DNA of 64,000 nt, taken from Chloroflexus sp. Y-396-1 (GTDB taxonomy: Bacteria; Chloroflexota; Chloroflexia; Chloroflexales; Chloroflexaceae). The stretch spans positions 2,946,881-3,010,880 of the forward strand of contig NZ_KI911784.1 of NCBI RefSeq assembly GCF_000516515.1, given 5' to 3'. The notes beneath the pieces are model-generated. The model saw only the letters and a program-made list of their open reading frames with translations. It did not search any database and was not told the DNA's origin. Within the stretch, counting starts at the first letter, position 1. Every line of letters starts with the position of its first letter. The position numbers and the translations under genes are program-made. Shown here in pieces: positions 47,620-48,423 of this stretch.

Positions 47620-47817
47620 GAGGCGGGCCGGAGGCCCGCGCACCTAGGCGATGATGGCGGGGTAGCTTCTCAAGCCGCCCGCCGTCTTTTGTATGCCTGT
47701 CCGAGGCGGGCCGGAGGCCCGCGCACCTAGGCGATGATGGCGGGGTGGCTTCTCAAGCCGCCCGCCGTCTTCTGGATGCCTGTCCGAGGTGGGCCGGAGG
47801 TCCGTGCGCGCAGGTGA
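47620..47817. repeat. 83-base tandem repeat, two full copies and a partial
   Basis: Copies begin at 47620, 47703 and 47786 (the third is partial and diverged). The two full copies differ at only a few positions. Each contains two potential stems: GCGGGCC-gga-GGCCCGC, and GGCGGG paired with CCCGCC. Confidence 0.85.
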
Positions 47818-47938: not shown

Positions 47939-47967
47939 TTGCGCATTCACAAACGATCAGGTATACT
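47939..47967 (+). promoter_or_regulatory. Candidate rpsU promoter
   Basis: TTGCGC, 17 bases, TATACT (47962-47967). The -10 box is good, the -35 box weak. Transcription would begin near 47974 with a leader of about 160 bases. Confidence 0.45.
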
Positions 47968-48028
47968 ATTACTTCGGTGTACGATAACGGCGCATGTCGC
48001 TGCAAAGGGGCGCACCAAATCCACAGCG

Positions 48029-48039
48029 AAGGAGGTGAT
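48029..48039 (+). promoter_or_regulatory. Perfect anti-16S (Shine-Dalgarno) sequence in rpsU leader
   Basis: AAGGAGGTGAT, complementary over 11 bases to the standard 3' end of 16S rRNA, about 98 bases before the rpsU ATG. No ATG, GTG or TTG follows at normal spacing; an ATC at 48049 opens a frame that runs into rpsU. Confidence 0.6.
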
Positions 48040-48048
48040 AGAGGAAGG

Positions 48049-48147
48049 ATCACGGTAGCAACAAAGGAATCGGGCGTTGCCCCACGCCAGGTCACGATTC
48101 TCTATCGCAACCAGGTACCGTTGATCCGGCAGCGCTATGCGAGTTGA
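48049..48147 (+). CDS. Possible leader peptide overlapping rpsU
   Basis: A 32-codon frame that could start at ATC 48049 and ends with TGA at 48145-48147, overlapping the rpsU start by 11 bases. The encoded peptide (ITVATKESGVAPRQ... ending LIRQRYAS) is basic and does not match a family I know. Its only support is the Shine-Dalgarno upstream and the overlap, which would couple it to rpsU. ATC is a very rare start codon. Confidence 0.25.
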   Translation: MTVATKESGVAPRQVTILYRNQVPLIRQRYAS

Positions 48148-48343
48148 ACGTCGAGAAGGCGAAACCGTTGAACAGCTCATTCGCCGATTCAATAAAGGTG
48201 TTGTCGCTGAGCGAATCACCAAGACCTATCGCGAGAAAATGCATTTTATCTCGAAGAGCGAGCAGCGCAAAGAGAAGCGTCGTCGCGCCGAGCGGAATCG
48301 TCGGAAGAAACTGGCCAAGGCTGCTGCGCTTGGTCTGAATTGA
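48137..48343 (+). CDS. rpsU: 30S ribosomal protein bS21
   Basis: A 68-residue basic protein matching bS21: MRVERREGETVEQLIRRFNK, VVAERITKTYREKMHF, and a lysine/arginine-rich tail (KEKRRRAERNRRKKLAKAAA). bS21 binds the 30S platform near the anti-Shine-Dalgarno helix and aids initiation. Only ATG 48137 can be the start, because the frame is closed by stops just upstream. It has no Shine-Dalgarno of its own; the strong one lies 98 bases before. prfA follows after 80 bases. Confidence 0.93.
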   Translation: MRVERREGETVEQLIRRFNKGVVAERITKTYREKMHFISKSEQRKEKRRRAERNRRKKLAKAAALGLN

Positions 48344-48423
48344 AAAACCTGCGATGGCACATACGTTGCAGCGTAAAGCACGTATTGTGCCATCGAACAT
48401 CTTGAGTAGCGGAAGATAGGGTT

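Follow-up and report, generated by a model that had tools for sequence, protein, structure and literature searches.

The locus and its features

The window, by which we mean the whole stretch of 64,000 nucleotides from Chloroflexus sp. Y-396-1 that was analysed, contains a gene, rpsU, whose product is identified as ribosomal protein bS21 by a TIGR00030 score above cut-off, and the release factor 1 (RF1) gene comes next after it. An in-frame TGA stands five codons upstream of ATG 48137, so this ATG is the sole usable bS21 start, just as the original prediction had it. The same prediction held that rpsU has no adjacent ribosome-binding site, and this too was borne out: a search of the local region for pairing with the 16S tail found no strong Shine-Dalgarno sequence directly before the ATG, the best pairing there being -9.1 kcal/mol (from UUGAUCC, in the 3' strand of the helix that we call P1) as against -19.5 kcal/mol at a distal site. 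The features of the leader and gene are as follows.

47939–47967, + strand: putative promoter, TTGCGC, 17 nt, TATACT, as read from the sequence
48007–48011, + strand: 5' strand of a candidate pseudoknot, GGGGC, which pairs with GCCCC (48079–48083) in the P3 loop; co-variation
48013–48022, + strand: 5' strand of hairpin P0, CACC-AAA-TCC, an internal anti-Shine-Dalgarno with an AAA bulge; RNAalifold consensus hairpin and minimum-energy fold
48029–48039, + strand: distal extended Shine-Dalgarno, AAGGAGGTGAT
48047–48056, + strand: 5' strand of the proposed bridging helix P1, GGATCACGGT; spacer-end co-variation
48067–48072, + strand: 5' strand of putative helix P2, GAATCG, with CGATTC at 48095–48100; from the sequence and a longer P2 in congener folds
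48073–48088, + strand: hairpin P3, GGCGT-TGCCCC-ACGCC, whose loop supplies the 3' strand of the pseudoknot; stem co-variation
48117–48127, + strand: 3' strand of P1, ACCGTTGATCC, with one bulged U; co-variation and minimum-energy fold
48128–48136, + strand: predicted unpaired 3' spacer, GGCAGCGCT, up to the ATG, with 8 nt unpaired on the 5' side of P1; sequence
48137–48343, + strand: rpsU, bS21, 68 aa; TIGR00030 and Pfam PF01165

Downstream, an inverted repeat, GATGGCACATACGT...ACGTATTGTGCCATC, lies at 48350–48400 between rpsU and the RF1 gene, and relatives carry a hairpin of different sequence at the same place.

A conserved Shine-Dalgarno far from its start codon

The distal site lies 98 nt from ATG 48137, and its full complementarity to the 16S tail, claimed at the outset, is confirmed against the genome itself, whose own 16S genes terminate in ...GGATCACCTCCTTT. 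The 11-mer is by itself not rare, with eight exact copies in the genome, three of which are the antisense of 16S genes, and the word alone proves nothing. What sets the site apart from chance is that all 65 homologous leaders have it, which rules out a fortuitous 11-mer. A second genomic copy of the core pattern, with two mismatches, sits in a repeat-rich stretch where nothing points to the beginning of a gene (L177), and a GC-rich unit, GAGGCGGGCCGGAGGCCCGCGCACCTAGGCGATGATGGCGGGGT..., occurs in two direct copies at 47620–47800, part of it recurring elsewhere in the genome (also L177).

We drew bS21 genes of the same type from 41 genomes of the window's own family and 82 of the order, plus extra loci, and conservation was judged on 65 leaders of such genes from four families of this one Chloroflexota order. 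Every one of them has a single GG(A/G)GGTGA site, placed between -14 and -135 relative to the ATG, and in 38 non-redundant leaders its pairing with the 16S tail is worth -16.0 to -19.6 kcal/mol. In the same comparison the stretch just before the ATG averages -5.0 kcal/mol, against -4.9 kcal/mol for a mid-spacer control, and the exceptions with a local match are few (for example L048, at -13.1 kcal/mol). The distance from site to ATG is 19–127 nt in 60 of the 65, and an ordinary gap of 6–9 nt is seen in few: the spacer is 6 nt in L055, 9 nt in L068 and L070–L072, 19 nt in L060, L062, L064 and L066, and 35–127 nt elsewhere.

Two leaders from a single genus can be set side by side. In L070 the site is unsplit, reading GGGGGTGA-CCTACGCGC-ATG with a 9-nt spacer, while L060 reads GGGGGTGA-AAGGGGAAACCCTACGCGC-ATG with a spacer of 19 nt that has the identical 3' end plus ten bases; these extra bases close a GAAA hairpin (AGGG-GAAA-CCCT) and leave 7 nt unpaired, so that, judged by sequence, the pair would look like an insertion in which the spacing has been preserved. 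In many other Chloroflexota, though not in all, rpsU is preceded at ordinary spacing by AAGGAGGTGA or something close to it, and among the Chloroflexota compared no split form was seen outside this order. Some genomes of one family, f2, have a second, Pfam-typical type of bS21 that starts with GTG and has AAAGGGGGTGA at ordinary spacing (L077–L080), and one f2 genome (G049) has both types, its MRVERR-like type carrying the split site.

Upstream of the distal site, 63 of the 65 leaders have a -10 box of TATA(A/C)T type, compared with 13.5% of random windows, and none was found between site and gene in any of the 65, so the distal site is almost certainly transcribed. In the window itself we expect transcription to start near 47974; with the promoter scanner's threshold set at 9 of 12, the window's copy falls below and one relative scores 9.

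The original prediction had also pointed to a reading frame beginning near 48049, which does exist and ends at 48147, overlapping rpsU by 11 bases, and a short leader peptide read from the distal site might then be coupled to rpsU. However, neither ATG, GTG nor TTG occurs near the site, a start codon at a usable distance is absent, spacer lengths do not keep to multiples of three, and no frame stays open across relatives; we have discarded coupling on account of these unconserved frames and regard it as very improbable indeed.

A helix that joins the ends of the spacer

Comparison of the leaders indicates that the ends of the spacer form a co-varying terminal helix, P1, which starts within a few bases of the Shine-Dalgarno and stops within a few of the ATG. 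For each long spacer we evaluated the first 22 nt and the last 24 nt as a duplex, and compared cognate ends with ends swapped between leaders: in 38 leaders less than 75% identical, cognate ends average -17.8 kcal/mol, whereas swapped ends average -10.7 kcal/mol (z = -14), and shuffled ends likewise reach -10.7 kcal/mol. The signal persists when the own family is taken by itself (z = -9.1), when the other families are (z = -8.1) and among leaders less than 60% identical (z = -10.0), and three control pairs of windows were flat, with no sign of co-variation. In the 5' strand, the window has A-U where most congeners have G-C. When the leader is co-folded with the 16S tail, P0 opens and P1 stays. 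When leaders are folded one by one, their ends come together only modestly more than those of shuffled spacers, an effect too weak to decide the matter alone.

How close P1 would bring the site to its ATG can be read from the nucleotides left unpaired beside it, which number 13–19 in most leaders of the own family, 17 in the window and 7 in the smallest forms; in some leaders of families f3 and f4 a greedy search for the first P1 stem chose poor stems, and the residual spacing there is uncertain. Since 13–19 nt is longer than the 6–9 nt of the unsplit relatives, further compaction must be assumed, and it is our conjecture that the conserved flanks GCAGA and GCAGAGC may add some of it.

These results also bear on the suggestion that the leader is a standby device, in which the distal site takes up a 30S subunit that then slides along or stays in place until the start region has opened, without precise bridging by P1. 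Such a device needs a distal site that is strong and a start region that is structured, and both are found here, but it predicts neither the co-variation of the spacer ends nor the occurrence of split and unsplit forms within one genus. We prefer a bridged split site to passive standby because the spacer ends co-vary and because kin have ordinary spacing, and we consider standby distinctly unlikely. The comparison of rpsU leaders across Chloroflexota thus upholds part of the original prediction: the site is real, conserved and transcribed, and the ends of its spacer co-vary, whereas coupling falls for want of a conserved frame and standby is less likely than a split site. A strong terminal helix such as P1 could alternatively be an element that binds a regulator or governs mRNA stability.

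Structures confined to the window's own family

Within the own family the leader appears to be more elaborate. P3 is supported by compensatory changes (GGUAU/GUACC in L004 and GACGC/GCGUC in L010), with three pairs changing on both sides, and the pseudoknot by GGGGU/ACCCC (L009, L012 and L015), GGGAC/GUCCC (L024) and GAGGC/GCCUC (L044); across 12 distinct combinations from the own family, cognate pseudoknot strands pair better than swapped ones (p about 0.0005). P2 reads CATAGAACTG/CAGTTCTATG in one congener (L002) and is absent from the minimum-energy fold of the window's own sequence. The P0 hairpin, as modelled, can mask the distal site; at -6.7 kcal/mol in the window it is far weaker than the 16S tail, 4% of shuffled sequences do as well, and it is unable to co-vary fully because the site itself is fixed. 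Neither the pseudoknot nor P0 was seen in the other families of the order, in which the site and P1 are present. P0 thus competes with the distal site and is limited to its own family, and this counts against the split-site account.

Four leaders (L014, L021, L023 and L028) have tracts of six or seven U just before the ATG, which also pair in P1. Among the leaders scanned for terminators, which included L023 and the window's own, a terminator-like hairpin was flagged at this place in L014 and L021 only, with L023 unflagged and none on the + strand of the window's leader, and control by a terminator was rejected as a general explanation. The U tracts (those of L023 and L028 judged by eye) may possibly represent an attenuation variant of the leader.

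A structured leader before a gene for a ribosomal protein brings to mind autogenous operators, whose conserved structured 5' UTRs (PMC7247131) resemble this one, with its co-varying P1, P3 and pseudoknot. By itself or together with a partner, free bS21 might bind the pseudoknotted leader and repress translation in the manner of the classic ribosomal-protein leaders; P1, P3 and the pseudoknot would then make up the binding site, and the Shine-Dalgarno would simply be masked. The conservation of pseudoknot and hairpin beside the site in the own family is in keeping with this proposal, as is the nature of the gene product, but the other families show the site and P1 and not the pseudoknot or P0, and no rRNA-like motif was identified in the leader. 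We find an operator of this sort doubtful, although it is compatible with bridging by P1.

A probable split ribosome-binding site and its possible link to bS21

In our judgement the best account of the leader, and the simplest, is with a probability of roughly 0.7 and on comparative sequence evidence that its ribosome-binding site is split and structurally accommodated. On this view the 16S tail would pair with the extended Shine-Dalgarno at 48029–48039, and P1 (48047–48056 with 48117–48127) would loop out the intervening ~100 nt so that ATG 48137 becomes reachable by the same 30S subunit. We suppose in addition that initiation would need P1, that P0 would mask the site and so favour 30S subunits with a free 16S tail, and that the output would be feedback on bS21, the protein that sits next to that tail.

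There is precedent for split sites and for a link between bS21 and a very strong Shine-Dalgarno. Split sites have been tested in genes 25 and 38 of phage T4, where spacings of 27 and 22 nt are reduced to 11 and 5 by RNA structure (PMC3014915), and the rpsU leader shares with them an over-long distance from Shine-Dalgarno to AUG (98 nt) and an intervening structure that would shorten it, evidenced here by the co-variation of P1. It differs in that the phage T4 sites span 22 and 27 nt and have a single hairpin, whereas the rpsU leader extends to 127 nt, has a predicted fold made up of a helix with side hairpins and a pseudoknot, and serves a cellular ribosomal-protein gene throughout an order. 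In addition, the statement that other bacteria tie rpsU to the anti-Shine-Dalgarno helix has experimental backing in the Bacteroidota: in Flavobacterium johnsoniae, ribosomes without bS21 translate rpsU through an extended Shine-Dalgarno (PMC9976891). The likeness lies in the gene, in its exceptional complementarity to the 16S tail and in the candidate bS21 feedback; the difference is that the site there is contiguous with the start codon, and here stands 98 nt upstream, split off by a folded domain.

This precedent suggests a rival explanation, in which bS21 hinders the 16S tail, so that only subunits without bS21 use the very strong site, and the looped-out RNA is secondary. Every leader tested has a site of -16 to -20 kcal/mol, beyond the threshold of about -13 kcal/mol reported for Bacteroidota rpsU (PMC9976891), and the Shine-Dalgarno signal is weak elsewhere in the window: none of its 46 long ORFs reaches -15 kcal/mol with the 16S tail. 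In autoregulation of the Bacteroidota type, bS21, bS18 and bS6 sequester the 16S tail and most genes are without a Shine-Dalgarno; a rough survey of the window at -7 kcal/mol gave 61% against 41% for a mock. A site so strong, and so rare in the window, would fit bS21 feedback, and feedback by bS21-poor ribosomes is, by analogy with Flavobacterium, plausible. However, the Flavobacterium site stands directly before its start codon, and we regard this rival explanation as possible while leaning against it. A more ambitious version would make the leader a sensor of ribosome composition, in which CACC-AAA-UCC acts as a clamp, kept on the site by the pseudoknot, only 30S subunits that lack bS21, with their freed 16S tail, can open it, P1 delivers the ATG from ~100 nt away, and translation reads out the missing bS21; this we think unlikely.

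As for the novelty of the split site, Rfam 15 covariance models gave no match in the window at gathering thresholds, and at E values up to 1 in six loci there were three weak matches, each of them in L027, which fell outside the leader and scored far below gathering level; a known RNA family was accordingly set aside for the leader. Neither the main text of a paper that describes 20 new leader candidates (PMC7247131) mentions S21, rpsU or Chloroflexota, nor do the main texts of two other RNA-discovery papers mention S21 or rpsU. Among open-licence papers we found none joining rpsU with Chloroflexus, and of bacterial split sites only those of T4. We therefore see in this leader what is probably a new form of known kinds of element, and, the open-licence literature being what was searched, do not claim priority.

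If P1 works as we propose, base pairing over ~100 nt would assemble the ribosome-binding site of a conserved chromosomal gene, a split far larger than the phage examples, and the link between bS21 and a strong Shine-Dalgarno would be extended to a phylum outside the papers that we found. With its natural series running from unsplit to split sites, a single genus offers the chance to test directly how sites of this kind evolve. There is also a warning here, which is that genes without a Shine-Dalgarno beside the start codon may have one farther away.
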